Positions 12,250 to 37,929 of a stretch of DNA of 64,000 bases are shown here, piece after piece; positions within the stretch are counted from its first letter, which is position 1; every line of letters starts with the position of its first letter. Origin of the DNA: Streptomyces marianii (GTDB lineage Bacteria; Actinomycetota; Actinomycetes; Streptomycetales; Streptomycetaceae). The notes under the pieces were generated by a model. It did no database searches. It was not told the origin of the DNA and worked only from the letters and a program-made list of their open reading frames with translations. The position numbers were made by a program, and so were the translations under genes. The stretch spans positions 5,879,001 through 5,943,000 of the forward strand of contig NZ_VAWE01000001.1 in the NCBI RefSeq assembly GCF_005795905.1, written 5' to 3'.

Positions 12250-12293
12250 GCCGTTTCCGGAGGCTGTCGAGCGGCGGGCGTCACCCGCGCGCC

Positions 12294-16167: not shown

Positions 16168-16181
16168 GGGCCGGCGGTCCC
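16168..16181. promoter_or_regulatory. DosR-like inverted repeat upstream of the CBS-BON gene
   Basis: GGGCCGGCGGTCCC, matching the recurrent island pattern GGGCC-N4-GGYCC, located 170 bp upstream of the CBS-BON start. It overlaps the left part of a large palindrome, so independent function is uncertain. Confidence 0.35.
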
Positions 16182-16209
16182 ACGGCCGGTACCGGCCGTG
16201 GGACCGCCG
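16172..16209. repeat. Perfect 38-bp palindrome without spacer
   Basis: The two 19-bp arms (CGGCGGTCCCACGGCCGGT and its exact complement) meet with no loop. It lies between the CBS-BON promoter side and the 3' end of the PAS remnant. It could be a terminator, a protein-binding site or a cruciform; its perfection suggests recent origin or selection. Confidence 0.85.
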
Positions 16210-16268
16210 TGCACGAGCCGGTCGAGGACCGGCATATCGCTGACGAGCACCGCGCGGACCGTCCGCCT

Positions 16269-16450
16269 TCACTCCGTCGGGGTCGGCCAGGTCACCGGTC
16301 GGCCGAGCAGTTGCTCGACAGGAGCGCCGCGCATGCCTTCGGAGGCGGTGTTGACGCGCAGGACGCGCAGGTCCGAGTCCACCACCACAAGACCCACCGG
16401 TGACTGGGTGAACAGAGCGTCCAGGATCGCCGGCCCCCCTCGTCAGCTTC
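16269..16450 (-). pseudogene. PAS-domain fragment
   Basis: A minus-strand frame reads ILDALFTQSPVGLVVVDSDL then RVLRVNTASEGMRGAP and VEQLLGRPVTWPTPTE before a stop. This is the beginning of a PAS domain as found in PAS-SpoIIE phosphatases or histidine kinases. The stop comes within the PAS fold and upstream frames (to about 16580) do not connect without a shift. I read it as the remnant of a larger signalling protein. A short functional PAS peptide cannot be excluded. Confidence 0.45.
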
Positions 16451-16639
16451 TGTGCCGCGACGACGGGCTGCCCAGACGCCCCAGGCCACCGATCCGTCCG
16501 GGCGCAGCACCGGCCCCACGCACAGGCCCATGACTACCGCCCCGCCGGACACCCGAGGAGCGCCGCGCCGCCCGCACCTCACGGACTCTCCCGGCGTGAG
16601 GTGGTCCTTCGACCAAGATCGCGGCAGGCGGGAACAGCC

Positions 16640-17392
16640 TCAGTTCCCGTCCTGACCCCGAGCCCCGGACACGGGTCTGCCGTCCCGAAGATGTCGGGCT
16701 GCCGAGTTCGCCGCGGCTCGGGAGACCGGTTCGATGTGGGCGAAGGCGCTGCGGGCGTTCCAGGTGGGGAAAGCCCGCACGAGCCACGAGGGGCCGTGGA
16801 GTTGGATGTGGCGGTCGCGGGTGGCTTCGGCCCAGGTTTGCCGGCCGGCGTGCCATTTGACGAAGGCTTCGGCTTCCGCCGTGATGTAGAGGTCCTCGTC
16901 GATGCCGGGGTACGTCTTGCAGATCTCGGTGTCTCCGCGCTCGATCAGCAGCCAGTACCGCTCGGGGCGCCGGCGGCCGGTGAAGTCGAACCGGATGACG
17001 ATGCGCCGATCCGGGAGCCGGTCTCGGTGGAGCATGTTGCACATCGACCACAGTGCCACGAAGGGGTCGAGGTGCTCGGGGGCGATCTCGAGCCAGGTCG
17101 CACCCCACTCGCCGAGCGACACGCAGACCTTGAACAGGTCGTGACCAGCGGGCGTGAGCTCGTAGTGGCTTCCCCGTCCGTCGGGCTTGGGTGCCGACCT
17201 GACGATACCGAGCCGTTCGAGCTGCTTGAGCCGCTGCGAGAGCAGGGTGCGGGAGAGCCCGGGGGCGCCCTCCAGGATCTCACTGAAGCTTCCGCAGCCC
17301 AGGTGCAGGTTGCGGATGATCAGCGGCGTCCAGCGTTCGGCGAAGATCTCGGCGCCGCGGGCGATGGGGCAGTACTGGCCATACGTCCGCAC
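16640..17392 (-). CDS. HxlR-family winged-helix transcriptional regulator
   Basis: A 250-residue protein. The first 95 residues form the HxlR/MarR-like winged helix: YGQYCPIARGAEIFAERWTP, then LSRTLLSQRLKQLERLGIV (recognition helix) and YELTPAGHDL (wing). HxlR regulators are usually about 110-120 residues, so the 130-residue tail is an addition; its pattern (FVALWSMCNMLHRDRLPDR, RYWLLIERGDTEIC) resembles the SCP2-like or ligand-binding extensions found in some actinomycete members. The conserved N-terminal Cys (residue 8) is the usual HxlR redox-sensitive position. It is divergent from the adjacent FAD-dependent oxidoreductase (about 155 bp between starts), so it probably regulates that gene. 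Confidence 0.85.
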   Translation of the reverse strand: MRTYGQYCPIARGAEIFAERWTPLIIRNLHLGCGSFSEILEGAPGLSRTLLSQRLKQLERLGIVRSAPKPDGRGSHYELTPAGHDLFKVCVSLGEWGATWLEIAPEHLDPFVALWSMCNMLHRDRLPDRRIVIRFDFTGRRRPERYWLLIERGDTEICKTYPGIDEDLYITAEAEAFVKWHAGRQTWAEATRDRHIQLHGPSWLVRAFPTWNARSAFAHIEPVSRAAANSAARHLRDGRPVSGARGQDGN

Positions 17393-17547
17393 GACACCAG
17401 TGTCCCATCCCGCCCTCCGGCCCTGAGGTCCAGATTCCTGACTTCACGACGGTGGCCCCCGGTGGTGCGATGGACATCGAGACACGAGGAGGTGACGAAC
17501 ACGACCACCGAGCGCGTCGGCCGCACCCGAGCGAGGAGGCGATCGCC

Positions 17548-18918: not shown

Positions 18919-19056
18919 GAGCTCGCAAACGATCACGGGCGGGCCCCTTCTCGTGGCTCTCCGGCAGATGAGGCCCGGGCCCGCGACGTCGCGCGGTCCC
19001 TTTCCGGCGCCCGCGCGGATGCCCCCACGACGCGGACGCCGCCCGCTCCTATCCTG

Positions 19057-19830: not shown

Positions 19831-19851
19831 GCGGCCGACCGGAGTGCGGCA

Positions 19852-20055: not shown

Positions 20056-20284
20056 AACGCGGGGAACGGGTCCTCCGCATCGTCACCTAACTCCTCGACG
20101 ACAGCCTGCGCGCGGTTCAGCCTCCGCATTCCGAGACCCATGCCGGTCCTCCTCCTTCGTTTCAGGGTGCCGGAGGAATCGGGTGCATCGCACCGGGTCC
20201 CCGTGCACGCTCACCACGGCGGTGAGGCAGTGGGTTTCCCCGTGGCCGGGCGGGCCGCCGCCGGGCCGGCCAGGCGGTGACCGA

Positions 20285-20298
20285 AGGCCGGTCGGCCC
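20285..20298. promoter_or_regulatory. DosR-like inverted repeat upstream of the acetyltransferase gene
   Basis: AGGCCGGTCGGCCC, with five of six arm positions paired. It lies 86-99 bp upstream of the start and shares 13 of 14 bases with the box before the USP gene at 37 kb. Confidence 0.5.
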
Positions 20299-20383
20299 TC
20301 GTCGCTGCCCCCGGTAGCCTCTGGGAGCCGTGCCGCCCGGGCCTGAGGCTGTTCACCAGCATCGGTGACGAGGAGGCACAGCC

Positions 20384-23074
20384 ATGATCGAGTCGCAGCC
20401 GCCGCAGGTGCACGCGCTGCTCACCGACGGGTCGACCGTGCGGATACGGCGGGCAGGTCCGGACGACCGGGACGAGATCCTGCGCCTGTACGAGGCGATG
20501 TCGCCCGAGAACCTGCGGCTGCGCTTCTTCTCGACGAGCCGGCGTTCGGCCGGGGCGGCCGCCGACCGCGTGTCCGAGCAGGACCGGCCCGGCTATCGGG
20601 CGCTGGTTGCCGAAAGCGCCGACCGGATCGTGGGGCTCGCCGAGTACGAGGCGGTCCGGGGCACTGCGACTGCCGAGATCGCGCTGGCGGTCGCCGACGG
20701 ACACCACCACCAGGGGCTGGGGACTCTGCTGCTGGAACACCTCGTCGACGCCGCGCGTGGGGCGGGCATCACCACGTTCACCGCCGACGTGCTCTCCGAC
20801 AACAGCGCGGCGCTCAAGGTCTTCACCGACCTGGGGCTTCGTGCCAGCCGGCGGTGCGAGGGGCCCGAGTACCACTGCACCGTCGAACTCATCCGGAACG
20901 AGGAGTACTTGGCGGCCTGCGACGAGCGTGGCCGCACCGCCGACGCCGCGAGCCTGCGGCCGCTGCTGCGGCCCCGTTCCGTCGCCGTGGTCGGCGCGGG
21001 TACGAAGCCCGGTTCCGTGGGACGGGCGGTCCTGAGGAACCTCCGCCGAGCCGGTTTCGCCGGACCGCTGCACGCGGTCAACCCACACGCCCAGGCCGTC
21101 GAGCGGACACCCTCCTACCCGTCGGTGACGGCCCTGCCCCAGCCGCCCGAGCTCGCCGTGGTCGCGGTTCCCGCGGGTGCCGTGCCCGAGGTGGCCGAGG
21201 AGTGCGGGAAGACCGGGGTGCGGGCACTGGTGGTGCTGACCTCCGGTCTGGACGCCGGGCAGGCCGCGGCGCTGCTGGCCACCGTACGCCGGTACGGGAT
21301 GCGTCTGGTCGGCCCGAACTGCCTGGGCATCTCGAACACGGAGGAACGCGTGCGCCTGGACGCCGCCTTCGCCGCGCACCGCCCGCTCCCGGGCACCGCC
21401 GGAGTGGCCGTCCAGTCCGGCGGCGTCGGCATCGCTCTGCTCGGCGGACTCTCCAGGCTCGGCATCGGGGTGTCCAGTTTCGTGTCTCTGGGCGACAAGT
21501 ACGACGTCAGCGGCAACGACCTGCTCCAGTGGTGGGAGGGCGACGGCACGACCGACCTGGCCCTGCTGCACCTGGAGTCGTTCGGCAATCCGCGCGCCTT
21601 CTCCCGTACCGCCCGCCGTGTCGCCCGGCGGATGCCCGTCCTCACCGTGGATGCGGGCCGCTCCGACGCCGGGCGCCGGGCCGCCGCCTCCCACACCGCC
21701 GCGGCCGCCACGCCGACGATGACCCGCCAGGCGCTGTTCACCCAGGCCGGAGTCACTGCCACGCGCAGCATCGGTGAACTGCTCGACACCGCAGCCCTGC
21801 TGCACTCCCAGCCCCTGCCGGCCGGGACCAGGGTGGCAGTGGTGTCCAACGCGGGCGGCGCCGGCGTACTGGCCGCCGACGCCTGCACCGAGGCGGGGCT
21901 GAGCGTGCCCGAGCTGCCCGCCGAACTGGTCACCGACGTACTGGAGCTTCTGCCCGACGGTGCCAGCGCCGCCAACCCGATCGACACGACCGCCGCCGTC
22001 GGGGAGGCGCCACTGCGCGCCTGTGTGGCACGGCTCGCGGCCCATGGAGGTGTCGACGCCGTCCTGGTGGTGCTGGCCCCCACCGCGATCTCCGCGGCGA
22101 CCGGAGACGATCCCGTCCTGGCGCTCACCCACGCCGCCCCGGCCGGCCGATCGAGTACGGTCGCCGCGGTCCTCCTCGACCAGGCCGAGTCCGTCCGCCT
22201 GCTGCACACCAGGGGCGGCGGCGCCCTGCCCGCATACGCCGACCCGCAGGCCGCCGCCCGCGCCCTGGCCCACGCGGCGGCCCGAACCCGCTGGCTCGCC
22301 CGGTCTCCGGGCAGGGTCACCGAACTCCCCGACGTGCACACCCCCGAAGCCGAGGCCCTTGTCGCCAGGTGCCTGGAGACCGGCCCCGGAGGCGGTTGGC
22401 AGGATCCCCGTACCACCGCGGACCTGCTGGACCACTACGGCATCCCGCAACTGCCCTGGGCGTGGGCCGAGGACGAGGAAGCCGCCGTCATCGCAGCCCA
22501 ACGGCTCGCCGGTCCCGACGGACGCGTGGTGATGAAGGCGTATTGGCCGGGACTGCTGCACAAGACCGAACACGGCGCAGTCCACCTGGACTTGCAGAAC
22601 ACCTCGCAGGTCAGGGCTGCCCACCGCGATCTCGTCACCCGCTTCGGCGAGTTGATGACCGGCGTGGTCGTCCAGCCCCTCGCCGACCGTGGCGTCGAGC
22701 TGGTCGCCGGAGCCGTCCAGGACGAGGTCTTCGGCCCACTGGTGCTGTTCGGCCTCGGCGGAACGGCGACCGAGCTCCTCGCCGACCACGCCGCCCGCCT
22801 CGCCCCACTGAGCGACCAGGACGTACGGGAAATGATCACCTCGCCGCGTTGCGCGCCGCTGCTCTTCGGCTACCGAGGCTGCGGCCCCGTCGACATCAAG
22901 GGGCTGGAGCAGCTCCTGCTGAGGCTGTCCCGCATGGCCTGCGATCTGCCGCAGCTGGCGGAGATCGATCTGAATCCCGTCGTCGCCCGGCCTGGCGGCG
23001 TCACCGCCCTCGACGTCCGCGTCCGACTGCTGCCACGGCGGGCCCGCGACCCGTACCTGCGCCGGCTGCGCTGA
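20384..23074 (+). CDS. GNAT-acyl-CoA synthetase fusion (Pat-type protein lysine acetyltransferase)
   Basis: An 896-residue fusion. Residues 1-170 are a GNAT domain with the acetyl-CoA loop HHHQGLGTLLLEHLV. Residues 185-896 are an NDP-forming acyl-CoA synthetase module: CoA-binding Rossmann part (RPRSVAVVGAGTKPGSVGRA), ligase-CoA part (VGPNCLGISN, VQSGGVGIALL) with an SHT motif at His437 where the phosphohistidine of active ADP-forming synthetases lies, and an ATP-grasp part (DHYGIPQLPW, VMKAYWPGLLHKTE, EIDLNPVV). GNAT-first order is the form described for streptomycete Pat enzymes, whereas enterobacterial Pat has the GNAT last. Such enzymes acetylate and silence acetyl-CoA synthetase. The usual Gly after SHT is Ala, so ligase activity may be lost and the module regulatory. 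ATG with GACGAGGAGG-like site upstream. Confidence 0.88.
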   Translation: MIESQPPQVHALLTDGSTVRIRRAGPDDRDEILRLYEAMSPENLRLRFFSTSRRSAGAAADRVSEQDRPGYRALVAESADRIVGLAEYEAVRGTATAEIALAVADGHHHQGLGTLLLEHLVDAARGAGITTFTADVLSDNSAALKVFTDLGLRASRRCEGPEYHCTVELIRNEEYLAACDERGRTADAASLRPLLRPRSVAVVGAGTKPGSVGRAVLRNLRRAGFAGPLHAVNPHAQAVERTPSYPSVTALPQPPELAVVAVPAGAVPEVAEECGKTGVRALVVLTSGLDAGQAAALLATVRRYGMRLVGPNCLGISNTEERVRLDAAFAAHRPLPGTAGVAVQSGGVGIALLGGLSRLGIGVSSFVSLGDKYDVSGNDLLQWWEGDGTTDLALLHLESFGNPRAFSRTARRVARRMPVLTVDAGRSDAGRRAAASHTAAAATPTMTRQALFTQAGVTATRSIGELLDTAALLHSQPLPAGTRVAVVSNAGGAGVLAADACTEAGLSVPELPAELVTDVLELLPDGASAANPIDTTAAVGEAPLRACVARLAAHGGVDAVLVVLAPTAISAATGDDPVLALTHAAPAGRSSTVAAVLLDQAESVRLLHTRGGGALPAYADPQAAARALAHAAARTRWLARSPGRVTELPDVHTPEAEALVARCLETGPGGGWQDPRTTADLLDHYGIPQLPWAWAEDEEAAVIAAQRLAGPDGRVVMKAYWPGLLHKTEHGAVHLDLQNTSQVRAAHRDLVTRFGELMTGVVVQPLADRGVELVAGAVQDEVFGPLVLFGLGGTATELLADHAARLAPLSDQDVREMITSPRCAPLLFGYRGCGPVDIKGLEQLLLRLSRMACDLPQLAEIDLNPVVARPGGVTALDVRVRLLPRRARDPYLRRLR

Positions 23075-23379: not shown

Positions 23380-23398
23380 CCCCACGCTTCGCGTGGGG
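23380..23398. terminator. Compact hairpin downstream of the acetyltransferase gene
   Basis: An 8-bp perfect stem CCCCACGC / GCGTGGGG with a TTC loop, about 305 bp after the stop codon. It is a possible distal terminator. Confidence 0.45.
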
Positions 23399-23645
23399 GC
23401 GCGCTCCGTCCATGGCTGCTCATGGCGCCGACGTCTGCGTGCTCGCTGCACGCGGGCCGGACAGGACGGCGTCCTCGGCGGGTGCACGCCGCGGGCTGTT
23501 GCCGTCGGCCACGGGCGGCCCGGGCGCAGCCGTGGTACCGCTCCGGGGAGCGCCCCGGCACGCGGGCAGGCACTCGCGGGCCAGGGCGCCGATGCGCCGT
23601 TACCGCCGTGCTTCCGGCACTCGCGGGCCCCTCGGGCCCTCTGCG

Positions 23646-23727: not shown

Positions 23728-24606
23728 ATGCCCCGCACCGTAACCGTCGGACTCGACGGCTCGCGAGAGAGCATGGCGGCCGTGGGCTGGGCCGCGCGGG
23801 AGGCGCTCGCGCGCGGTCTGCCGCTGCGCATCGTCCATGTCTGGGACTTGGCGCCGGACGTGCACACGCCGCTCACCGGTCCGGACACACGGCGCCACTG
23901 GGCCGAGCGCACACCGCGCAAGGCCGCCGAGTGGGTGGGCAGGCGCCATCCGGGGCTCGAGGTGGAGACGGTGCAGAAGTGCGGGGAGCCTGCCAAGGCC
24001 CTCTGCGAGGCCGCCGAAGAGGCCGATCCGCTGGTCCTCGGATCCCGGGGGCTCGGCGCTGTCACCGGCTTCGTCGTCGGGTCGGTGTCCTTGGCCGTCG
24101 TCGCCCGTACTCCTCGCCCCGTCGTGCTGGTGCGGAGCCGGGATCAGCAGGCGCCGGGCACCGAGCCCCCGGCGGACAGCGGTGACGTCGTGCTCGGAGT
24201 GGACATCTCCCATCCGTGTGACGAGCTGTTGGAGTTCGCCTTCGCCCATGCCCATCGGCACGGGGCCGGGTTGCGCGTGGTGCACAGCTGGAACTTCCCC
24301 TTGGCCTGGGGTCCGGATGCGGCAGCGGCAGCCGCTCTGATCGAGGGCGAGGTGGAGGCGGCGAAGGCGGACGCCCTGGCCGCGGTGCTCCTCCCGTGGC
24401 GGCACAAGTTCCCCGAGGTGCAGGTCACCGAGGAGTGCCGCCTGGGCCGTCCCGCCTCCGACCTGCTGGCCGCAGCGCGCGATGCCCGCCTCGTCGTGGT
24501 CGGACGCCGCAACCGCACGTCCTCGATCGGTGCGCACACCGGGCCCGTGACGCATTCCGTCCTGCACCACTGCGCCGCTCCGGTCGCCGTGGTCCCGCAC
24601 GACTGA
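23728..24606 (+). CDS. Universal stress protein, two tandem USP domains
   Basis: A 292-residue cytoplasmic protein with two USP folds (about 1-145 and 150-290). The first starts TVTVGLDGSRESMAAVGWAA and carries the ATP-binding signature G-x2-G-x9-G-S (GSRGLGAVTGFVVGSVS). In the second, the equivalent stretch is GRRNRTSSIGAHTGPVTHS, which departs from the ATP motif, so only one nucleotide site may be intact. Tandem USPs of this type are typical members of the DosR-like dormancy regulons of actinomycetes. It sits directly upstream of the arginine deiminase operon, in the same orientation. The start has GGAGG seven bases upstream. Confidence 0.9.
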   Translation: MPRTVTVGLDGSRESMAAVGWAAREALARGLPLRIVHVWDLAPDVHTPLTGPDTRRHWAERTPRKAAEWVGRRHPGLEVETVQKCGEPAKALCEAAEEADPLVLGSRGLGAVTGFVVGSVSLAVVARTPRPVVLVRSRDQQAPGTEPPADSGDVVLGVDISHPCDELLEFAFAHAHRHGAGLRVVHSWNFPLAWGPDAAAAAALIEGEVEAAKADALAAVLLPWRHKFPEVQVTEECRLGRPASDLLAAARDARLVVVGRRNRTSSIGAHTGPVTHSVLHHCAAPVAVVPHD

Positions 24607-24985
24607 CGGCATGGCGGACCGGCGCCGCTGCCCGCCTCCCCGGGCAGCGGCGCCGCGCGTGACGTCGCGTCACCGGCGGACACGGACGGCAGGCCGATGC
24701 GGGGCGGCATCACACGGCGCCCTCAGGCCCCCGGCCACCGGGCCCACGGACTGAGGCGCCGGACCGCCGTCGGGCGGCGCAGGGCCGAAGGTCCCGTCCG
24801 GCCCGGCGAACGGGCCAGGGACGACGGGTCCCGTACGGCCTCTGCGTGGGGACCGTCGCCGTCCCGTTCCGCACCGCCCGGGTGACACGGTCGGGGCATG
24901 GCCGAGCCACGCGTCCCGCGGACGCGGCGAGACCTCACCCGTCGCCCTGAGCGCAGTCCCGACCTCCACCGTGCCGAGGAGCACC
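24607..24985. promoter_or_regulatory. Promoter region of the arginine deiminase operon
   Basis: A 379-bp gap with clustered inverted repeats: GGGCCGAAGGTCCC at 24782-24795, then GGGAC-N5-GTCCC at 24818-24832. They suggest multi-site activator binding. No clear -10/-35 pair was assigned. Confidence 0.5.
24782..24795. promoter_or_regulatory. DosR-like inverted repeat upstream of arcA
   Basis: GGGCCGAAGGTCCC matches 11 of 14 positions of the DosR core GGGACTWWAGTCCC, the best single match in the window. It is about 190 bp before the arcA start, and a second, wider GGGAC/GTCCC pair lies closer at 24818-24832. Confidence 0.5.
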
Positions 24986-26209
24986 ATGTCCTTCCATGTC
25001 GATTCCGAGACCGGTCGGCTCAAGCAGGTGATCCTGCACCGGCCCGACCTGGAGCTGAAGCGTCTGACCCCGACGAACAAGGACACGCTGCTCTTCGACG
25101 ACGTTCTCTGGGTCAAGCGGGCCCGGATGGAGCACGACGCCTTCGCCGACACCCTGCGGGAGCGCGGTGTCCGCGTGCATCTCCTCTCCGACCTGCTCAC
25201 CGAGACGCTGGCCCGGCCCGCCGCCCGCGCCCTCGTCGAGGACCGTGTCTTCGACGAGCGGGAGTTCGGGCCGCTCGCGACCGACCGTATGCGCGCGTTC
25301 TTCGACTCCCTGGAACCCGCCGAACTGGCCGTGTGCCTCATCGGCGGCGTCACGCAAGGGGAGTTGCTCGGGCGCATGGGCGCCGTGCCGAGCGTACGGC
25401 TGCACGCCATGGGCCCCGACGATTTCGTACTGGCCCCCTTGCCCAACCACCTGTTCACGCGCGACACCTCGTGCTGGGTGTACGACGGCGTGAGTGTCAA
25501 CCCGATGAAGAAGCGGGCGCGACGCCGCGAGACCGTTCACTTCGAAGCGATCTACCGGCACCACCCCCTCTTCGAGAAAGGGGAGTTCCAGCGGTGGACG
25601 GACGGGGAGGCGGCCTACCCGTCCACCGTCGAGGGCGGCGACGTCCTGGTCATCGGCAACGGGGCGGTGCTCATCGGAATGAGCGAGCGCACCACCCCGC
25701 AGGCCGTGGAGAGCCTGGCCCTGCGCATGTTCGCCGCGGGCTCCGCGCGGCGTGTGGTGGCGCTGGACCTGCCCAAGAGCCGCAGCTTCATGCACCTGGA
25801 CACGGTGATGACCATGCTCAGTGGCGACACCTTCACCCGTTACGCGGGGCTGGGCATGCTGCCGTCCTCGACGATCGAGCCCGGCCCCGGCGGCCAGGGC
25901 CTGAAGATCACCGATCATGTGCCCGAGGAGATGGACCGAGCCATCGCCGACGCCCTCGGCCTCGACTCCGTCCAGGTGCTCACGCCCAGCCAGGACGTCC
26001 GCTCCGCGGAACGGGAGCAGTGGGACGACGGCTGCAACGTACTGGCCGTGGAGCCCGGTGTCGTCGTGGCGTACGAGCGCAACGTGACGACCAACACCCA
26101 TCTCCGCAAGAGCGGTATCGAGGTGATCACCATCCGGGGCAGCGAACTCGGCCGGGGGCGTGGCGGCCCGCGCTGCATGAGCTGTCCGATCGAGCGCGAA
26201 CGGGTCTGA
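24986..26209 (+). CDS. arcA: Arginine deiminase
   Basis: A 407-residue enzyme that hydrolyses L-arginine to citrulline and ammonia, the first step of the arginine deiminase pathway. Family motifs are in order: [17 protein letters not shown] near the N-terminus, [37 protein letters not shown] with the catalytic His, and the C-terminal [13 protein letters not shown] with nucleophile Cys400. The length is normal for ArcA. The ATG is chosen over a GTG five codons earlier because GAGGAG sits five bases before it. First gene of a four-gene operon that yields ATP without respiration. Streptomycetes are obligate aerobes, so the operon suggests survival under oxygen or energy limitation. Confidence 0.95.
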
Positions 26210-26272
26210 CGCACAGTCGACCGACCTCCGTACGACCCCCTTACCCGTCGAGAACCAAGGAGCCGAGCCGGC

Positions 26273-27274: not shown

Positions 27275-27307
27275 GGCTCCACCTCCGCACCCCTTGAAAG
27301 GCATCCC

Positions 27308-28261: not shown

Positions 28262-29799
28262 CCACCAGCAGCGCCAGCAGCGTCTCCCCCGGGCCGGAGC
28301 CCGCGGAACAGGACGGCGACCCGCACGGTGCCCCGGCCGTCAAGCGCCGCTTCGCCTTCCCCTCGGCCTTCACCGTCCTGACGGCGGTGACGGTCGGGGT
28401 ATGGGCCCTGACCTTCGTCATCCCCGCCGGCCGCTACGACACCGAGGACGGCAGCCCGATCCCCGGCACCTACCACCCCGTGGAGCTGACGACCGGGTTC
28501 TGGGACCGGCTCAAGGACCTCTTCCTCGCACCCGTCAACGGCCTTTACGGAGTCACCGACCCCGAGAGCGCACTCACCGCGCCCGGCGGCAGCGGCGACT
28601 TCGCCGGAGCGGCCGGGGTGTTCCTCTTCATCCTGGCGGTCGGCGCCTTCATCACCGTCACCATGCGCACGGGCGCTCTCACCCGCGGCGTCGCTCGTCT
28701 CGCGCACCGTCTGCGGGGCCACAGGACGCTGCTCCTCGTGGTGCTCCTGACGGTCTTCTCCCTCGGCGGCACCACCTACGGCATGGCCGAGGAAACCCTC
28801 GGCTTCTACGGACTGATGATCCCGCTCATGCTCACCCTGGGATACGACCGCATGGTCGCCGCGACGGTCATCATGGTCGGCGCCGGCGTGGGCACGCTCG
28901 CGTCCACCGTCAACCCCTTCGCCACCGGGGTCGCCTCCGACAGCGCGGGCATCGGTACCGGCGACGGGATCGTCCTGCGGCTGGTGATGTGGGTCTGCCT
29001 GACGGCACTGGCGGCGGCCTACGTGGTGCGCTACGCGCGGCGGGTCCTCGCGGACCCCGCCCGGTCACTCGTTCCCGTCACGGAGGAGGACCGTCTGCTC
29101 GGGAGCGACGCTCAGGAGGCCGAGCAGCTCACCGGCCGTCAGCGCACCGTGCTCTGGACCTTCGCGGGCACCTTCCTCTTCATGATCCTCGCCGTGGTCC
29201 CCTGGGCCGACCTGCCCTTCACCTTCCTGCCCACGCTGGGCTGGTACTTCCCCGAGCTCGCCGCCCTGTTCATCGTCGCGGCGATCGCCGTCGGCCTGAT
29301 CGGCGGCCTGGGGGAGAAGGGCACCGCGACCGCGATCACCAGCGGGGCCGGGGACTTCATCGGGGCGGCGATGATCGTCATGCTGGCTCGCGGGGTCACC
29401 GTCGTCATGAACAACGCCGCCGTGACCGACACCGTCCTCGACGGCCTGCACAGCGCGGTGTCCGGTGCGTCCTCCGGCGTCTTCGGGATCCTGATGTTCC
29501 TCGTCAACATCCCGCTCGCCTTCTTCGTGCCCTCCTCGTCGGGGCACGCGGCCCTGGCCATGCCGATCCTCGCGCCGCTGGCGGACTTCGCGGGTGTCAG
29601 CCGGGCGCTCGTGGTGACCGCCTACCAGTCGGCCTCGGGCTGGGTGAACCTGGTCACCCCGACCTCGGCCGTTGTCATGGGCGGCCTGTCGCTGGCCGGG
29701 GTCCGCTACGACCGGTACCTGAGGTTCATGGCTCCGCTCATGGGAGCGCTGTTGGTGGTCATCGCCGGATTCCTCGCGATCGGGGCGACCCTGGACTGA
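28258..29799 (+). CDS. YfcC-family amino-acid transporter, probable arginine/ornithine antiporter
   Basis: A 513-residue integral membrane protein with about 12 helices after a 33-residue hydrophilic N-terminus. Features of the YfcC/ArcD-like (DUF401/C4-dicarboxylate anaerobic carrier-like) family are the N-terminal FAFPSAFTVLTAVTVGVWAL and FVIPAGRYD, the loop GTTYGMAEETLGFYGLMIPL, ASTVNPFATGVASDSAGI and the C-terminal FFVPSSSGHAALAMPILAPL with NLVTPTSAVVMGGL. Family members are often in arginine deiminase operons, where they exchange arginine for ornithine. Substrate identity is inferred from the operon, with a 4-bp overlap with arcC. Confidence 0.88.
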   Translation: MTTSSASSVSPGPEPAEQDGDPHGAPAVKRRFAFPSAFTVLTAVTVGVWALTFVIPAGRYDTEDGSPIPGTYHPVELTTGFWDRLKDLFLAPVNGLYGVTDPESALTAPGGSGDFAGAAGVFLFILAVGAFITVTMRTGALTRGVARLAHRLRGHRTLLLVVLLTVFSLGGTTYGMAEETLGFYGLMIPLMLTLGYDRMVAATVIMVGAGVGTLASTVNPFATGVASDSAGIGTGDGIVLRLVMWVCLTALAAAYVVRYARRVLADPARSLVPVTEEDRLLGSDAQEAEQLTGRQRTVLWTFAGTFLFMILAVVPWADLPFTFLPTLGWYFPELAALFIVAAIAVGLIGGLGEKGTATAITSGAGDFIGAAMIVMLARGVTVVMNNAAVTDTVLDGLHSAVSGASSGVFGILMFLVNIPLAFFVPSSSGHAALAMPILAPLADFAGVSRALVVTAYQSASGWVNLVTPTSAVVMGGLSLAGVRYDRYLRFMAPLMGALLVVIAGFLAIGATLD

Positions 29800-30389: not shown

Positions 30390-31187
30390 CTACCGGGCGG
30401 GAGTGATCAACCCGTAGTGGCCGTCGCACCTGTGGTACAGCACGCGTCCCCGGCCGGTGGCGGAGTCGGCGAAGAAGAGGAACGGAAGTCCGGTGAGACG
30501 CATCCGCCGGACGGCCTCGTCGAGGCTGCACTCGGGCACCGGAGCCGAACTCACACCCAGAAGGGGTCCGGCCTCGTGCGCCGGGCTGACCGTACCCGCC
30601 GAGGCCAGGCGATGCCGGCCGGAACGGCCGTCGCGGTAGACGACGCTGTCATGTCCCGACGTCATGTCGGTGAACAACCAGAAGTCGTAGCCCATGGACT
30701 CCATGTCGATGACGGCGTCCTCGGGTGTCTGCCGGCCCAGACTGAACGACTTGTGCCGCACGACGCGACGCTCCTCGGCCGGCTGCTGCTGCCGGTCGGG
30801 GCGGCGCCCCTGACCGCGGTGCTCCCGCGACGCCTCCTCGGCGGCCGGACCCCCGCGGTGCTCCGAGCCGATGTGCCGCCGGGTACGGGCCAGTCGTGCG
30901 GCCAGCCGGTCCTGCAGCAGGTCGACCGCCTCGAACATGGTGTCCGCGGCAACGTGAGCGCGCACCGGGCACCCGTTCACGTCCACCACCGCCTGAGCTG
31001 TGGCCGGACGGCTCGCCGACGGGTTGGCGGCCTGGGTGAGCTGTGCCCGAACGGCCAGGACCGGCGAGCTCACATGCGCGATCGCCGCGAGCATCTTCTC
31101 CCGGGCGTACTCGGACGCGCCCTCGGGTACCGGCCCACGGCTGTTCACCAGGACGTCGGCGGTCGGACTGGACTTGAGACGGTTCAT
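30390..31187 (-). CDS. hpf: Ribosome hibernation promoting factor with duplicated C-terminal domain
   Basis: A 265-residue HPF/RaiA-family protein. The N-terminal S30AE-like domain (about 10-110) would bind the decoding centre of idle ribosomes. The C-terminal dimerisation domain occurs twice: TPEDAVIDMESMGYDFWLF then DSVVYRDGRSGRHRL (about 160-200), and SLDEAVRRMRLTGLPFLFF then GRVLYHRCDGHYGLI (about 220-262). Ordinary long HPFs have one such domain, so this is a two-copy variant, a form seen in actinomycete stress regulons. A highly charged, Gln- and Arg-rich linker joins the domains. AAGGAG lies seven bases before the ATG. An island-type inverted repeat is about 131-144 bp upstream. I infer 70S dimerisation or storage during dormancy. 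Confidence 0.88.
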   Translation of the reverse strand: MNRLKSSPTADVLVNSRGPVPEGASEYAREKMLAAIAHVSSPVLAVRAQLTQAANPSASRPATAQAVVDVNGCPVRAHVAADTMFEAVDLLQDRLAARLARTRRHIGSEHRGGPAAEEASREHRGQGRRPDRQQQPAEERRVVRHKSFSLGRQTPEDAVIDMESMGYDFWLFTDMTSGHDSVVYRDGRSGRHRLASAGTVSPAHEAGPLLGVSSAPVPECSLDEAVRRMRLTGLPFLFFADSATGRGRVLYHRCDGHYGLITPAR

Positions 31188-31317
31188 GGAAGGCTCCTTC
31201 TCGGTCGCCCCCAGCCTTTCTCCTGCCCGCCGTTCGAGGTCAGTGCCGTTCGGGTCGTCCCCCGGGCCGACCTGTACCCGGCTGCCCGGCATTCGCGGGC
31301 TGTTCGGCCACTCGGGA

Positions 31318-31331
31318 GGGCCCTTCGGTCC
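31318..31331. promoter_or_regulatory. DosR-like inverted repeat upstream of hpf
   Basis: GGGCCCTTCGGTCC, 131-144 bp upstream of the hpf start, matches nine of 14 DosR-core positions. It is the weakest of the series. Confidence 0.35.
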
Positions 31332-31536
31332 ACAACGCGTGGTTCCCGCACGCTTCTTGGCGGCAGCCCCACCGCTCTCCGCGGGTGGTCCGCGACTCTG
31401 CTGCCCAATTCCGGGGCAACTCCGACACGCGGACCACGACCTGCGACAACGCGGTGACCGTTGCGGCCTTCCCGGCATGACTCTGCTGCTCAGCCGAATT
31501 GAGCAGCAGAGTCGTCCGCACCCACAGAGACCGTGC

Positions 31537-31731: not shown

Positions 31732-32318
31732 GACACACCCCCTTGGTCTGTCGTCCACTGGACTCGGTACCCAGTTGCCGCCCTCACTGTTCCGAAGGCT
31801 CCGGGGGCGCTCCCAGGGGCCTGTTGACCCCTGAGTGCGCCATACGGCCCCGCCTGGCGGCGAGGGGCGCGGCCGTGCGCGGGCGGGTACGGCGGTGGCG
31901 GCGCGCGCCGCAGCGAGTCGTGGGCGCGCGAACGGCCCCGGGTCGGCCCGCAGCGGGGGCACTGGAACGCCTGATCGGAGCCGGAGGTCATCGGGCCCGG
32001 GATCGGGACCTTTGGGACCTCCGCCGCCGACCTGCTCGGCACAAGGCTGTAGGTGACCACCCGATGAACGGGCGGTCTCCCGGCCGGCCCCTGACGGCGG
32101 CTCGACCCGGGCCCGTGCACAGCGACCTGGGAGCCCTCCCTGACTCGCCCACCAGTGTGCACCGGCAACCCCCGCATGCCGATGCTCGATGACAGGGAGG
32201 AATCGCGCGCGGCATTCTACGCCGACCCATCCCCCACGCCTCCCGTCTAGGCGCCGTTTTCACCCGCATGGGCCTATAGGCTGTCTGCGTTCAGCGGGTG
32301 AAAGCGGAGGGGAAGCGT
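31732..32318. promoter_or_regulatory. Divergent intergenic region before the sensor kinase
   Basis: No gene was seen. It contains dispersed repeat copy B (31786-31850) and a direct repeat GGGACCT-TT-GGGACCT near 32006-32022 that resembles half-sites of the island motif. Confidence 0.45.
31786..31850. repeat. Dispersed repeat, copy B
   Basis: Counterpart of 15010-15070, same strand. Shared perfect blocks are ACTGTTCCGAAG and CCTGTTGACCCCTG. It is upstream of a minus-strand small membrane protein, as copy A is upstream of a minus-strand membrane phosphatase. Confidence 0.7.
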
Positions 32319-34043
32319 GTGAGCCTCGAGGAGTCGTTGTCACGTATGCCCCAGATGCGGCTCGACGAGCTGCTCGACGAGCTGCAGGCGCGCATCAACG
32401 CGGCCCGCGGCACGCGCGACCGGGTGCACAGTCTCCTGGAGGTCGTGGTCTCGGTGGGCCGCGAGCTCGATCTCTCCCAGGTGCTGCGGCGCATCGCGGA
32501 AGCCGCCGCTCAGCTGGTCGACGCGCAGTACGCGGCTCTGGGCGTGATCGGCCCGGACGGCCGGACGCTGTCGCAGTTCCTCACCGCCGGGCTGACGGAG
32601 GAGGAGACCGCCCGGATCGGTCCGCTGCCGGCCGGACACGGGCTGCTCGGTGAGCTGATCCGCAACCCCGAGTCCCTCCGCCTCTCCGATCTCGGCGCCC
32701 ACCCGGCGTCGTACGGCTTCCCCGCACATCACCCGCCGATGCGTACGTTCCTCGGTGTGCCGATCCGGGTGCGCGACGAGGTGTTCGGCAACCTCTACCT
32801 GACCGACAAGCGCGGCGGCCGGGACTTCGACGCGGAGGACGAGGCGGTGATCTCCACGCTCTCCGTGGCCGCCGGTGTGGCCATCGACAACGCCCGGCTG
32901 TACGAGGCGTCGCAGCGCCAGCAGCGGTGGCTGCAGGCGAATGCGGAGATCACCAAGAGCCTGCTCTCGGGCAAACCCCGGCTCGAGGTCCTGGAACTGA
33001 TCGCCCGTCGTGCACGGGAGATCACCGACGCCCGCGTCGCCGACGTGTCCGTGCCCGTCGCCGGTACCGACGACCTGCTCGTCGAGCTGGCCATCGGCGG
33101 CGACCACGACACGCGCCGGGGCTTGGTGGTGCCGGCCGAAGGCACCCTGTCGGGCGCCGCCTACCAGGCGGGTACGCCGGTGACCACGGCGGGACTGGCC
33201 GATGACGCCCGCTGCACCGCAGGATCCCGGCACTTCGAGGGACTGGGGCCGGCCGTGGCCGTACCCCTGGGCACGGCGGCCAAGGACACCCGAGGAGTCC
33301 TGCTCCTGGCGCGCGCCGTCGGCGATCCGGCCTTCACCGAGTGGGAGCTGCAGCCCCTGCTGGCCTTCGCCGGACAGGCCGCGCTGGCGCTGGAGCTGGC
33401 CGAGCGCCGACGTGACGCCGAGCACCTCGCGCTGCTGGAGGACCGTGACCGTATTGCCCGTGACCTGCACGACCTGGCCATCCAACGGCTGTTCGCCACC
33501 GGTATGACACTGCAGAGTGCCGCGCGTCTCGTCGAGCACGCCGGCGCTGCGGAGCGTGTGCAGCGCGCGGTCGGGGACCTGGACGAAACCATCAAGATCA
33601 TCCGGTCCACGATCTTCGGCCTGCGGGCGCGCGAGGACGAGACCGAGCCGAGTCTGCGCGCGCGCGTCGCCCGCGCCGTCGGCGAAGCCGGAGCGGCGCT
33701 GGGATTCCCGCCACGCCTGAGTATGGAGGGCCTGCTGGACACGGACGTCCCCCCTGCGGTGGCCGACCACGTCATGGCGGCTCTCGGCGAAGCACTGAGC
33801 AACGCCGCCCGGCACGCGCAAGCGGCGCGCGTGGAGGTTTCCCTGCAGGCCACGGCGGACGAGGTCGTCCTCACCGTGACCGACGACGGGAAGGGGATAC
33901 CGGCCGACGGCAGGCGCAGCGGACTGCGCAACCTCGCCGAACGCGCCAGCAGCATGGGCGGCACCCTGGACATCCGAACCCCGGCCGAGGGCGGCAGCCG
34001 GCTCGTATGGCGGGCCCCGTTCGCCGCCGGCAACGCGGGATGA
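32319..34043 (+). CDS. DevS/DosT-like sensor histidine kinase (GAF-GAF-HisKA_3-HATPase)
   Basis: A 574-residue soluble kinase with no membrane helices. GAF-A (about 45-195) contains AHPASYGFPAHHPPMRTFLG and GNLYLTDKRGGRDF, the segment that in mycobacterial DevS/DosT surrounds the haem-ligand His. GAF-B (about 220-360) follows. The phosphorylation site is His384 in ARDLHDLAIQRLFATG (HisKA_3), and the HATPase_c lobe shows EALSNAARHAQA, VTDDGKGIPADG and GLRNLAERASSMGG. This architecture is that of the hypoxia/NO sensor pair of DosR systems; haem binding here is inferred, not shown. GTG with GGAGGGG six bases upstream was chosen over a GTG seven codons earlier. The cognate regulator is encoded 1.4 kb away, beyond two opposite genes. 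Confidence 0.9.
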   Translation: MSLEESLSRMPQMRLDELLDELQARINAARGTRDRVHSLLEVVVSVGRELDLSQVLRRIAEAAAQLVDAQYAALGVIGPDGRTLSQFLTAGLTEEETARIGPLPAGHGLLGELIRNPESLRLSDLGAHPASYGFPAHHPPMRTFLGVPIRVRDEVFGNLYLTDKRGGRDFDAEDEAVISTLSVAAGVAIDNARLYEASQRQQRWLQANAEITKSLLSGKPRLEVLELIARRAREITDARVADVSVPVAGTDDLLVELAIGGDHDTRRGLVVPAEGTLSGAAYQAGTPVTTAGLADDARCTAGSRHFEGLGPAVAVPLGTAAKDTRGVLLLARAVGDPAFTEWELQPLLAFAGQAALALELAERRRDAEHLALLEDRDRIARDLHDLAIQRLFATGMTLQSAARLVEHAGAAERVQRAVGDLDETIKIIRSTIFGLRAREDETEPSLRARVARAVGEAGAALGFPPRLSMEGLLDTDVPPAVADHVMAALGEALSNAARHAQAARVEVSLQATADEVVLTVTDDGKGIPADGRRSGLRNLAERASSMGGTLDIRTPAEGGSRLVWRAPFAAGNAG

Positions 34044-34076
34044 AGGGACAGGCACCCCGCGGCGTCGGCGCACGGC

Positions 34077-34541
34077 TCAGGCCGTGAGCCTCGAACCCGT
34101 GACCAGGTCGGGCCGGATGCGCAGCGCCGCGTTCATCACGGGATGCACCACCCACGGGCGGAGCCTTGCCGCGTAGCGGGCGAGTTCCTCGTCGTCCGTG
34201 ACCCGGTGGGCGTAGCCGGTGACGACGACGCTCCAGCCGAGATGGGTGTCGGGGTCGATGACGTCGGCCTCGTAGGCCACGACCACGCCGGCCTCGTCGG
34301 TGGGCGCCACGATCGAGGCGAGCGTGCCGCCTTCGTGCAGCTGGACGATGATGTCCTCGCCGTCCATGAGGTGGTTGACCGGGCGGACAGCCGGCAGGGC
34401 CCGTTCGGTGAAGACGATGCGCCCGAGCGACACGGTGCCGAGCAGGCCCAGAGCCTCGACGCGGTCGAGTCGCGTCATGCGCCGGGGTGCCACCGTGAGG
34501 CGGCTCCCCCCTGTTCGCTGCGTGGCTTCGTCGTCCATCAT
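34077..34541 (-). CDS. Pyridoxamine-5'-phosphate-oxidase-fold (PPOX) flavin/F420-type protein
   Basis: A 154-residue split-barrel protein. Core features are ALGLLGTVSLGRIVFTERAL, AVRPVNHLMDGEDIIVQL and GWSVVVTGYAHRVTDDEEL, as in the PPOX-like proteins that accompany DosR-type regulons in mycobacteria and streptomycetes. Members bind FMN or F420 and reduce small molecules; which cofactor is used cannot be told. The two adjacent ATG codons follow GAGGGTGG. An inverted repeat GGGCCGAACGGACC is 83-96 bp upstream. It is convergent with the sensor kinase gene (33 bp between stops). Confidence 0.85.
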   Translation of the reverse strand: MMDDEATQRTGGSRLTVAPRRMTRLDRVEALGLLGTVSLGRIVFTERALPAVRPVNHLMDGEDIIVQLHEGGTLASIVAPTDEAGVVVAYEADVIDPDTHLGWSVVVTGYAHRVTDDEELARYAARLRPWVVHPVMNAALRIRPDLVTGSRLTA

Positions 34542-34623
34542 GCCCACCCTCTGCTCCTGCTCCGTGCTCGGAGCAGCTCGCTGCCGTGACAGTCAGCGTC
34601 CCCCGGAGGGTGCCGCGGTGACA

Positions 34624-34637
34624 GGGCCGAACGGACC
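34624..34637. promoter_or_regulatory. DosR-like inverted repeat upstream of the PPOX gene
   Basis: GGGCCGAACGGACC, five of six arm positions paired, 83-96 bp upstream of the PPOX start. Confidence 0.5.
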
Positions 34638-34697
34638 TTTCCGGCGGTCCCGGTCAGCCGGACGACCACTGCCGGTACGCCCCGGGGCGGGCGGTGG

Positions 34698-35018
34698 TCA
34701 GGCAAAGGAACAGGGGACGGTGTCGTCCACGCCGAGCACGCGGAACACCGTCGCACAAGGGTGCGGCACAGCGCACAGGTGAAGTCGCACGCCCGTCGCC
34801 GCACATTGTCGATGCACCCGTACGAACAGGTCGGCTCCGGAGCTGTCGCAGAACGTGACGGCCGACAGGTCCAGGCGCAGTTCGCGGACCATGCCGACGA
34901 CCAAGTGAGCCAGATCCAGCTCGACTTGTCCGGCGGTGGCTATGTCGAGCTCGCCGGAGAGGGCGGCGATCGTGGTGCCGTCGTTCACTGCCGTCGTGGT
35001 CAGGGTGGTCGAAGCCAT
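34698..35018 (-). CDS. STAS-domain anti-sigma-factor antagonist
   Basis: A 106-residue single STAS domain. LDLSAVTFCDSSGADLFVRV contains the phosphoacceptor Ser60 within DSSG, as in SpoIIAA/RsbV. ALSGELDIATAGQVELDL forms the N-terminal strand-helix. Such proteins release sigma factors by binding anti-sigma kinases when unphosphorylated and are reset by SpoIIE-type phosphatases, two of which are encoded in this window (13.6 and 42.3 kb). No anti-sigma kinase or sigma factor was seen nearby, so its partners are elsewhere. An inverted repeat 121-134 bp upstream ties it to the dormancy island. Confidence 0.9.
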   Translation of the reverse strand: MASTTLTTTAVNDGTTIAALSGELDIATAGQVELDLAHLVVGMVRELRLDLSAVTFCDSSGADLFVRVHRQCAATGVRLHLCAVPHPCATVFRVLGVDDTVPCSFA

Positions 35019-35138
35019 GAGTTCGGGGTCTCTCCGCCAGGGCGCCGTCAGGGGGCGCCGGTCTCGCCGGCTCGGCCGACGCCCGGAAGTCCACCAGATG
35101 ACCGGCCGTGGCCGGCAGGCCCTCAGGCCCCCGACACA

Positions 35139-35152
35139 GGGCCACTGGTCCC
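35139..35152. promoter_or_regulatory. DosR-like inverted repeat upstream of the STAS gene
   Basis: GGGCCACTGGTCCC, ten of 14 positions of the DosR core, 121-134 bp upstream of the STAS start. Confidence 0.5.
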
Positions 35153-35321
35153 TTCCTGTCCGCGACGGCGGTGTCAGGGGGCGGCCCTCCGGCGGTGTCC
35201 CCCGGCACGACGGGCGGCGGCGCCGAAGCCGGAGACGCTTCCGACGTACGGCCCACCGAACGGGGTGACGGAGCGACAGGGACGCGCAGCGCAGGGGAGC
35301 TTCTTCGGGCAGGGGGAATCA

Positions 35322-35349
35322 GGGCCGTTCGACCCTGGCCGTTCGGCCC
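35322..35349. promoter_or_regulatory. Tandem DosR-like inverted repeats upstream of the response regulator
   Basis: Two adjoining 14-mers, GGGCCGTTCGACCC and TGGCCGTTCGGCCC, each with five of six paired arm positions, end 63 bp before the response-regulator start. Tandem sites at its own promoter suggest cooperative autoregulation. Confidence 0.6.
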
Positions 35350-35412
35350 GTACGAGGACACCATGCAGAGGGTCCGCCCCGGCGGACGAACCCAGCCGAT
35401 ACGGAGTGAGTG

Positions 35413-36144: not shown

Positions 36145-36155
36145 GTCCCGCGTCC

Positions 36156-36209
36156 GGAACCGGGGTACCGAACCGCCCCCGCACAGGGACGGTTCGGGGC
36201 TCCGGTTCC
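36156..36209. terminator. Long bidirectional terminator hairpin
   Basis: Arms of 20 nt (GGAACCGGGGTACCGAACCG and a 17/20 complementary partner) with a 14-nt loop lie between the convergent response-regulator and USP genes. Confidence 0.75.
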
Positions 36210-36339
36210 TCTCGGAGCCGGGGTACCGGCGTCCCGTGCGGGGCCGGAGCCGACGGGGACCAGGCCCGGGTCCCGTATCGCAGGAGCTGGTCCCGGGAGA
36301 CCCCGGCCCGGCGCGGACCGATCGGTACTCAGGCGTGCG

Positions 36340-37209
36340 TCAGGCGTGCGGCACCAGTGCGACGGGGCAGCGGGCATGATGCAGAGCGGCATGGGCCACC
36401 GACCCGATGCGGGTACCGACGGGGGAGCGGCGTTCCCGGCGGCCGAGCACGAGCAGCTGCGCCCGGGCGGCGGCCGACAGCAACACCTGCCCCGCGCTTC
36501 CGATCTCCACGTGCGCGATCACCGGCACGGTGGGGAACTTCTCCCGCCACGGAGCGAGCGCCTGCTCCAGCGTCTTCCTCTCGAACGGTTCCAGCCCTCC
36601 CGCCTCATCGGCGAGGCGCATCGAACCCGGGCTGTAGGCAAAGATGGGCGGCAGGCTCCAGGCCCTCACCGCTCGCACGGCCGCTCCTCGTGCCGCAGCA
36701 GCCTCGAAGGCGAACTCCAGTACGGCGTCACTGTCCTCGGCCCCACCCTGCTGGCCCACGACGACCTCCCCGCCTTCCGGCTCATGCTGCCCGTCGCGGG
36801 CCCGGACCGACACCACAGGGCGCGTCGCGCTCGCGAGCACCTGCTGACCGTACGAGCCGAGCAGGAACCCGGCGATCGCCCCGTGCCCGCGCGATCCGAT
36901 GACCAGCATGCCGGCCCGCTCAGCCTCAAAGAGCAGGGCGGAAACTGCCGTATCGGGCACCACTTCGGCTGTGACCGAGAGGTCCGGATACCGGTCGGAC
37001 ACGTGTGTCTCGGCCTCCAGCAGAACGGCGTTGGCGGCGTCGGCCTGCACTTTCCTGTCCTGGACGACGGGGACGTCCAAGGGCTGCCAGAGCCAGGCGT
37101 GCACGATGCGCAGGGGCACGCCGCGGAGCGAGGCCTCGCGGGCTGCCCAGTCAGCGGCGGCCAGGCCCTCCCGGGATCCGTCCACTCCTACAGTGACAGG
37201 GCGAGTCAT
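36340..37209 (-). CDS. Universal stress protein, two tandem USP domains
   Basis: A 289-residue protein with two USP domains. The first (about 1-145) begins RPVTVGVDGSREGLAAADWA and has an ATP signature GSRGHGAIAGFLLGSYG. The second keeps GRRERRSPVGTRIGSVAHAA, a looser G-x2-G-x9-G-S variant. It is paralogous to the USP gene upstream of arcA. GGAGG is eight bases before the ATG. A perfect-arm inverted repeat (GGGCCG/CGGCCC) lies 90-103 bp upstream. It is convergent with the response regulator. Probable cytoplasmic stress and dormancy protein. Confidence 0.9.
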   Translation of the reverse strand: MTRPVTVGVDGSREGLAAADWAAREASLRGVPLRIVHAWLWQPLDVPVVQDRKVQADAANAVLLEAETHVSDRYPDLSVTAEVVPDTAVSALLFEAERAGMLVIGSRGHGAIAGFLLGSYGQQVLASATRPVVSVRARDGQHEPEGGEVVVGQQGGAEDSDAVLEFAFEAAAARGAAVRAVRAWSLPPIFAYSPGSMRLADEAGGLEPFERKTLEQALAPWREKFPTVPVIAHVEIGSAGQVLLSAAARAQLLVLGRRERRSPVGTRIGSVAHAALHHARCPVALVPHA

Positions 37210-37929
37210 GCGATGGCCTCCGTAAGCATCATGGGGCACGGCCTCTTCGGCCGTCCCCGGGTGCCTCGATCCTCACGGGTCCGGGGACCGTCCGACGAGG
37301 GCCGGTCGGCCCGACATGCGGACCCGTTCGGCCGGGCGAGTCGCCGTCCGCGTACGGTCAGGCCCCCGTTCCGGGGGAACGACCTCCGCCCCGGTGCCCG
37401 GCGAGAACCCGGCCGTCCCGGCCACCGCGGCCGGCCCGGCAGCAGCCGTACCGGCGGACGGCCCGCCCCTACGCCCGGCTTGAGGTCCGCGGTGAGCACG
37501 TGGCCGCGACCAGCGCGCCGATGGGTGGAAGCCGAGGGTGCGACAGCCACGTCGGTGCGAGTGGACGGATCTGCGACCTGCCCGGCCCGCGCCGTGCCGG
37601 GCGGTGGCCGGGCGTGATCCTTCGTGCCGCACCGGGACGCTCCGGCGAACCGGGCGACAAGAGTCCCCGGCGGCGGCATCCGTCCGTGCCGAGGTGCACG
37701 GGAAGCGAACATCCCGGACAGTGGAGAGAGGGAAAAGAGGGAAATTGAGGGTTCCATGAGCGGTCGGCGCGGGTGTGGACCATCAGGGGACACCACGTAA
37801 CCGCCCCACCCTCGGCCACTGGACGTCGTTCCCGCCCGGGGCCGTCCCGCTGGACGGCCGAGCCCGATCGTCGCCCGCAGCCGCGACAGCCCACCCGCAG
37901 ACACATCCGGGAGAACAGAAGGCCCACCC
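37210..37929. other. Divergent intergenic region between USP and DUF1540 genes
   Basis: About 720 bp. Contains the USP-side box at 37299-37312, a second GGTCC/GGACC palindrome at 37279-37290, a purine-rich run at about 37724-37755, and a perfect 8-bp inverted repeat GGCCGTCC-CGCT-GGACGGCC at 37840-37859, 70 bp before the DUF1540 start. No gene was supported. Confidence 0.5.
37299..37312. promoter_or_regulatory. DosR-like inverted repeat upstream of a USP gene (perfect arms)
   Basis: GGGCCGGTCGGCCC, all six arm positions paired, 90-103 bp upstream of the USP start. It is the best palindrome of the series and defines the consensus GGGCCG-NN-CGGCCC. Confidence 0.55.

Follow-up and report, generated by a model that had tools for sequence, protein, structure and literature searches.

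A predicted OsdK/OsdR (DevS/DevR-type) dormancy regulon in Streptomyces marianii with boxes before arginine deiminase, RafH-type and acetyltransferase genes

Two described systems stand closest to the locus analysed here. In Streptomyces coelicolor, the DevS/DosT-like kinase OsdK and the response regulator OsdR (SCO0203/SCO0204, also called DevS/DevR) belong to a linked gene neighbourhood, with a box of the published consensus AGGGCCGATCGGCCCT before the regulator gene and with universal stress protein (USP) and PPOX genes as targets (PMC5069765; the system is also treated in the review PMC9739842). S. coelicolor OsdR binds this consensus in gel shifts, and mutation lowers the binding (PMC5069765). 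In Mycobacterium tuberculosis, the targets of DevR/DosR, which is accompanied by DevS and DosT, include USP (PMC5069765) and RafH, a hypoxia-induced ribosome hibernation factor whose induction in mycobacteria runs through DosR (PMC10799931). Growth of streptomycetes requires oxygen even though their genomes are rich in anaerobic-type genes, which is known as the anaerobic paradox (PMC5069765). Here, we describe a window of 64,000 nucleotides (C1:5879001-5943000, numbered from its first base) of the Streptomyces marianii genome (9.01 Mb, 7 contigs) that contains an island of stress-related genes preceded by boxes of this kind. The island is almost certainly a Streptomyces OsdK/OsdR (DevS/DevR-type) dormancy regulon, and the genes with boxes are, judging from the sequence, probably switched on together at low oxygen. 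This interpretation is correct but not new, as the OsdK/OsdR system and the same box were already published for Streptomyces (PMC5069765).

A preliminary description of the window, made from the letters alone, had proposed a DosR-like dormancy regulon in an island that also encodes a DevS-like kinase and a DevR-like regulator, and all three parts of this proposal were supported at the level of sequence. For the regulator, domain content, best PDB match and identity to DevR agreed. Its best PDB sequence match was DevR 3c3w (E 7.3e-77) with 62.9% identity over 205 residues, and the EKTVKN stretch of the DNA-binding domain, which we take to provide base contacts, is conserved. It is most closely related to proteins from Streptomyces, with 94% identity to the row of S. 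roseolus, and in a midpoint-rooted tree drawn without SCO0204 the regulator was placed in a clade of 82 rows (99/97), nearly all from Streptomycetaceae, separate from DevR and from a third paralogue. The GAF-A domain of the kinase matched best to 2vzw (E 3e-50), presumably DosT, and to DevS 2y8h (1.1e-46). In this DevS-type domain the equivalent of the heme histidine is kept, with His145 and Tyr167 aligned to His149 and Tyr171 of DevS, which we assume to be the heme histidine and the distal tyrosine in DevS numbering. Heme binding and a response to O2 or nitric oxide (NO) are predicted for the kinase. Kinase and regulator do not form one operon: the kinase gene lies upstream, and two minus-strand genes for a PPOX and a STAS-domain protein stand between, whereas S. 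coelicolor has an osdR-osdK operon. The same order was found in many of 80 loci sampled around regulator orthologues (Streptomyces, Kitasatospora and a few others). With the M. tuberculosis system the locus shares the regulator (63% identical), the family of the kinase GAF-A domain and the geometry of the inverted repeat. The core differs, being GGGCCG-NN-CGGCCC here (16-mer form AGGGCCGNNCGGCCCT) and GGGACT-WW-AGTCCC for DosR as quoted in the preliminary description. The likeness to the DosR core claimed there held for the geometry; for the bases, 9 to 11 matches in 14 had been given, and we counted agreement with the quoted core at 7 to 9 of its 12 outer bases.

The boxes were scored with a strand-symmetric matrix built from the 25 S. 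coelicolor OsdR sites printed in Table 1 of PMC5069765 (16 bp per site; a score of at least 12 was usually taken as a strong site). All six box copies that had been quoted before were located at their positions; 37299 fits 12 of the 12 specified bases (exact 14-mer match at C1:5916299), 35322, 35336, 34624 and 20285 fit 11 and 24782 fits 10. Under the matrix, trained on S. coelicolor sites alone, boxes of this list took the first five ranks among the roughly 64,000 positions of the window, namely, in descending order, 34623, 20284, 37298, 35321 and 24781 (17.7 to 13.5). Boxes resembling the published AGGGCCGATCGGCCCT precede the genes for the regulator, USP and PPOX. Rank six was taken by 29203 (13.2), inside the dcuC-type gene and probably a chance match, and at lower ranks 31317 (rafH), 16167 (CBS-BON), 24817 (arc) and 35335 (second copy before the regulator) were intermixed with other window sites such as 41813. 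The target list of the preliminary description stood in part. Strong boxes were found for the GNAT-acyl-CoA synthetase (Pat), PPOX, the regulator and one USP, a good one for arcA and a moderate one for hpf; support was poor for CBS-BON, with a weak box, and for STAS and the other USP, with scores near background.

Clustering of strong sites in the island exceeds chance. Between 16 and 40 kb, 6 matrix sites of at least 12 were found, compared to a mean of 0.89 and a maximum of 5 over 300 order-3 Markov sequences, and outside this interval (40 kb) the window contained none. Thirty other stretches of the genome (595 kb readable; one, L053 at G000:C1:4500001-4520000, has N at 5,000 of 20,000 bases) yielded in total 12 sites of at least 12 and 5 of at least 13, from which 0.48 and 0.20 would be expected where 6 and 6 were observed. 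Four of the 25 genome-wide 16-mer sites with up to one mismatch fall within 17 kb of window sequence (binomial P 1.6e-7, uncorrected for the choice of place). The 14-mer with up to one mismatch showed a modest excess in the window (11 versus 4.6 expected; 11 reached in 2 of 100 shuffles). In the 80 orthologous loci, 377 sites of at least 12 in 1.53 Mb correspond to 4.93 per 20 kb, compared to 0.50 in 14 other stretches of the S. marianii genome.

In other Streptomyces, too, the boxes occupy comparable places in the promoters. Counting per target in the 80 loci, with exclusion of matches below 45% identity, below 60 residues or with less than 100 bp upstream, sites of at least 12 were found upstream of versus inside the same genes in 75 of 79 versus 0 cases for the regulator, 40 of 46 versus 0 for PPOX and 23 of 29 versus 1 for UspB; inside-gene controls across all targets gave 2 such sites in total. 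Within 160 bp before the regulator, 71 of 80 orthologues had a box of at least 12 (median -94; inside the gene 0 of 80), with locus L114, where merely 19 bp of upstream sequence are present, scored as a miss. The preliminary description had set as a test of its reading whether the motif is as common inside genes or in background sequence, and the sampled stretches and loci brought no refutation. Its tandem pair before the response regulator proved real as well. Among 90 offsets in 71 orthologues, +14 gave the highest mean score (-1.4 versus an all-offset mean of -17.4, sd 5.0), so that the offset is conserved, and the second copy scored at least 7 in only 7 of 80 orthologues. This copy may be a degenerate partner site, an arrangement that would suit cooperative binding. 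As for a helical spacing of secondary boxes, offsets +21 and +22 each occurred at 12 of 265 strong sites, none of them upstream of the regulator.

From these data we infer oxygen sensing, phosphotransfer, binding and the direction of regulation in the following form. The heme GAF kinase would sense the loss of oxygen (or NO) and phosphorylate the regulator, dimers of which would recognise boxes of the AGGGCCGNNCGGCCCT type, located some 75 to 205 bp ahead of the target genes, and activate these genes. The regulator would activate its own gene via the tandem pair. Strong targets would be the regulator, the PPOX protein, a USP and the GNAT-acyl-CoA synthetase, and further candidates with conserved boxes are the arginine deiminase operon, which might provide ATP from arginine without oxygen, and the RafH-type factor, which might protect ribosomes.

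Several points weigh against this interpretation. The orthologous loci share descent, and counts from them are non-independent. The published matrix derives from osdR promoters of 12 Streptomyces, so that the result for the regulator promoter alone is partly circular; the other target rows are not. The kinase gene has no upstream box (best score 5.4), and a box of at least 12 was found in only 5 of 60 kinase orthologues. Within the 80 loci, arcA had such a box in only 1 of 4 cases, the four including non-island types. Three of the previously named targets, CBS-BON, STAS and one USP, carry weak boxes in the S. marianii genome. Genome-wide, the 14-mer with up to one mismatch occurred 769 times versus 971 for a reversed control, and AGGGCCGNNCGGCCCT with up to one mismatch 25 times versus 37, i.e., there was no enrichment. 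Finally, a second and a third regulator of this type could act on the same boxes.

The last point leads to the alternative that survives best, although we consider it improbable: the boxes are real, but their main regulator is another DevR-like protein of the genome, the local one being redundant or divergent. Compared to the described S. coelicolor system, S. marianii has two OsdR-type copies in one genome. The second copy (C1:7.95 Mb; locus L042, G000:C1:7936001-7956000, 14425-13814) is 73-77% identical and lies beside a convergent, 60% DevS-like kinase gene (11937-13616). It falls into the other Streptomyces OsdR clade on a long branch that makes its placement unsure. Boxes were found in L042 and L268, and two 16-mer sites lie at 7.965-7.969 Mb, 15-18 kb from this gene. 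A third DevR-like regulator is 60-62% identical, and OsdK of S. coelicolor has SCO3818 as a further phosphorylation substrate (PMC5069765, PMC9739842). Against this alternative, the gene of the local regulator still has a conserved box of its own, the EKTVKN stretch is kept, and in many other species members of its clade are accompanied by the PPOX/USP/DevS neighbourhood.

That mere chance produced these GC-rich boxes in a genome of 72% GC, and that they were noticed because stress genes are near, is hardly credible. It would agree with the missing genome-wide enrichment of the 14-mer, its modest excess in the window and the location of 29203, which is among the six best sites, inside a coding gene. 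The caution about such matches in the preliminary description is answered by where the sites lie in the genome. Plain consensus counting was rejected as a definition of the regulon; because the plain motif is genome-wide rarer than its reversed control, the definition rests on local clustering and conservation. The matrix was trained elsewhere, the local excess was found over three controls, and the position is conserved in other species with near-empty controls. Conservation and clustering refute chance for the strong boxes; it may still explain those of CBS-BON, STAS and the USP gene at 23728. Binding by an unrelated regulator of stress genes is about as implausible: binding of the boxes by the regulator of the window is a prediction, but OsdR of S. 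coelicolor binds this very consensus, and less well after mutation (PMC5069765), and 71 of 80 loci have a box ahead of the regulator's own gene.

Taking the island as an OsdK/OsdR regulon, it differs from that of S. coelicolor by boxes at the arc operon, the RafH-type gene and the GNAT-acyl-CoA synthetase gene. Table 1 of PMC5069765 contains none of these three, and searches of one open-access library found no publication linking OsdR to arginine deiminase or RafH in Streptomyces. The words RafH and Streptomyces occur together in PMC9784227, a review on dormancy of M. tuberculosis.

The arc operon encodes arginine deiminase, ornithine carbamoyltransferase, carbamate kinase and a DcuC-family carrier, the latter matched by the YfcC antiporter model below its cutoff. 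Island-type arcA genes (at least 80% identity) had a box of at least 12 at -187 to -206 in 11 of 12 cases, the twelfth scoring 8.2 at -197. A second site of at least 9 was present in 8 of the 11 other island-type copies, in five of these 44-46 bp after the first. Other arcA genes showed no box of at least 12 within 300 bp in 48 cases (47 distinct, L154 and L297 being one genome). For housekeeping arcA, the 5 kb upstream in 10 genomes, together with about 3 kb from S. marianii, contained a single site of at least 12 (12.5), with no common position. In the 80 loci, arcD had no box of at least 12 (0 of 5). The arc operon is a likely OsdR target with a conserved box, as far as sequence can tell; to our knowledge, an arginine deiminase operon is not among the mycobacterial DevR/DosR targets. 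A differently built arc operon, with an APC-family antiporter gene followed by arcA, argF and arcC, was found in the OsdR island of genome G117 (L272, 10948-15610). In genome G062 it stands among Pat and USP genes with boxes, and no regulator was found within the 40 kb examined there. The arcA of this type (about 58% identity) had no box of at least 12 within about 550 bp in 10 copies (best 10.8), while the preceding APC permease gene had one in 3 of 10 cases and a box of at least 10 in 5 of 10. These data are no more than suggestive of a second recruitment of an arc operon to OsdR.

The hibernation factor is closer to RafH (Table 1) than to ordinary HPF, the next PDB match being 5nd8 with 1.6e-11. 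It resembles the mycobacterial RafH in its full-length match, its double C-terminal domain (two S30AE_C stretches) and the DevR-type box upstream, and differs in its N-terminal S30AE domain, which scores just below the Pfam cutoff (21.4 versus 23.7 bits). For this gene and for Pat, upstream regions were scanned in the best 30 loci per gene among matches in 121 genomes. RafH-type genes had an upstream box in 7 of 7 cases (11.0 to 17.9; at least 12 in 4 of 7), five of them at -148/-149 and one at -313 in L206, where the match is split over two frames. Ordinary HPF genes had no upstream site of at least 9 in 23 cases, and downstream of the 30 RafH/HPF genes the sole site of at least 12 (14.8) was found in L206. 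Within the 80 loci, 8 of 11 RafH-type genes had a box of at least 12. The RafH-type factor is a likely OsdR target, and ribosome binding is predicted. Orthologues of the GNAT-acyl-CoA synthetase had a box of at least 12 upstream in 21 of 30 cases, 20 of them at -97 to -117, and downstream in 0 of 30, compared to 1 of 10 upstream for relatives of about 40-43% identity; in the 80 loci the count was 3 of 5. Overall, island-type arcA as well as RafH and Pat carry boxes, while the other arcA, ordinary HPF and relatives of Pat are mostly without.

We consider it moderately probable that one branch of Streptomyces keeps a hypoxia survival kit under OsdR, consisting of duplicate arginine deiminase enzymes that would supply ATP without oxygen, RafH in common with the mycobacterial dormancy regulon and a dedicated protein acetyltransferase, with the housekeeping copies outside, and that the differently built arc operon of G117 and G062 may represent the same recruitment made twice. 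If true, an OsdR-controlled arginine deiminase operon together with a ribosome-protecting factor would be a concrete answer to the anaerobic paradox, namely energy for survival and not for growth. With RafH under such a box in both groups, the core common to the dormancy regulons of Streptomyces and of mycobacteria would gain a member, one open to study in a soil genus.

Table 1. Genes and predicted OsdR boxes of the island (window positions; box distances in bp relative to the gene start)
Feature	Position	Strand	Evidence or score
CBS-BON protein	15360..16250	-	Pfam
Weak box of CBS-BON gene	16167..16182	.	10.4; -184 from start about 15998
OsdR box of GNAT-acyl-CoA synthetase gene	20284..20299	.	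17.2; -100
Pat-like protein acetyltransferase, GNAT + NDP-forming acyl-CoA synthetase	20384..23074	+	Pfam
Very weak box before USP gene at 23728	23625..23640	.	7.5
USP, two Usp domains	23728..24606	+	Pfam
OsdR box of arc operon	24781..24796	.	13.5; -205 from ATG 24986
Second arc box	24817..24832	.	10.1; -169
arc operon: arcA, argF, arcC, DcuC-family carrier	24971..29799	+	Pfam, NCBIfam
RafH-type ribosome hibernation factor	30390..31187	-	Best PDB match RafH 8whx, full length, E 3.2e-53
OsdR box of hibernation factor gene	31317..31332	.	11.0; -145
OsdK/DevS/DosT-type sensor kinase	32298..34043	+	Pfam: two GAF, HisKA_3, HATPase_c
PPOX-class protein (Pyridox_ox_2)	34077..34547	-	Pfam PF12900
OsdR box of PPOX gene	34623..34638	.	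17.7; -97
STAS-domain protein	34698..35018	-	Pfam
Weak box of STAS gene	35138..35153	.	8.4; -135
OsdR box 1 of regulator	35321..35336	.	16.3; -89
Second, weaker tandem box of regulator	35335..35350	.	9.9; -75, 14 bp downstream of box 1
OsdR/DevR-type response regulator, receiver + LuxR-type helix-turn-helix	35410..36144	+	Pfam Response_reg, GerE
USP (UspB), two Usp domains	36340..37239, start probably 37209	-	Pfam
OsdR box of USP (UspB) gene	37298..37313	.	16.9; -104

The S. coelicolor counterpart of the PPOX gene, SCO0214, is a predicted OsdR target (Table 1 of PMC5069765). USP genes at least 45% identical to the 23728 protein (UspA), which need not be orthologues, had a box of at least 12 in 17 of 29 loci. 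STAS orthologues had one upstream in 10 of 14 cases, in a region common with the divergent regulator promoter, and CBS-BON orthologues in 2 of 5. A gene for a SpoIIE-type phosphatase (window 13612-15210) adjoins the CBS-BON gene; taken together with the STAS protein, it is reminiscent of an anti-sigma switch. A DUF1540 protein gene without a box (window 37930-38232) lies between USP genes.

Outside the window, two 16-mer sites at 800.6-800.8 kb lie between USP and CBS genes. This stretch (L040, G000:C1:790001-810000), in which no OsdR-type regulator or DevS-type kinase was matched, is a second dense cluster with USP/CBS genes and sites of at least 12 at 10624, 10758, 12021, 12907, 15456, 17497 and 17546, the one at 10758 fitting the 16-mer without mismatch. 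At G000:C1:961235-961464, GGGCCGACCGGACC recurs every 27 bp at least 9 times as a tandem repeat, perhaps coding.

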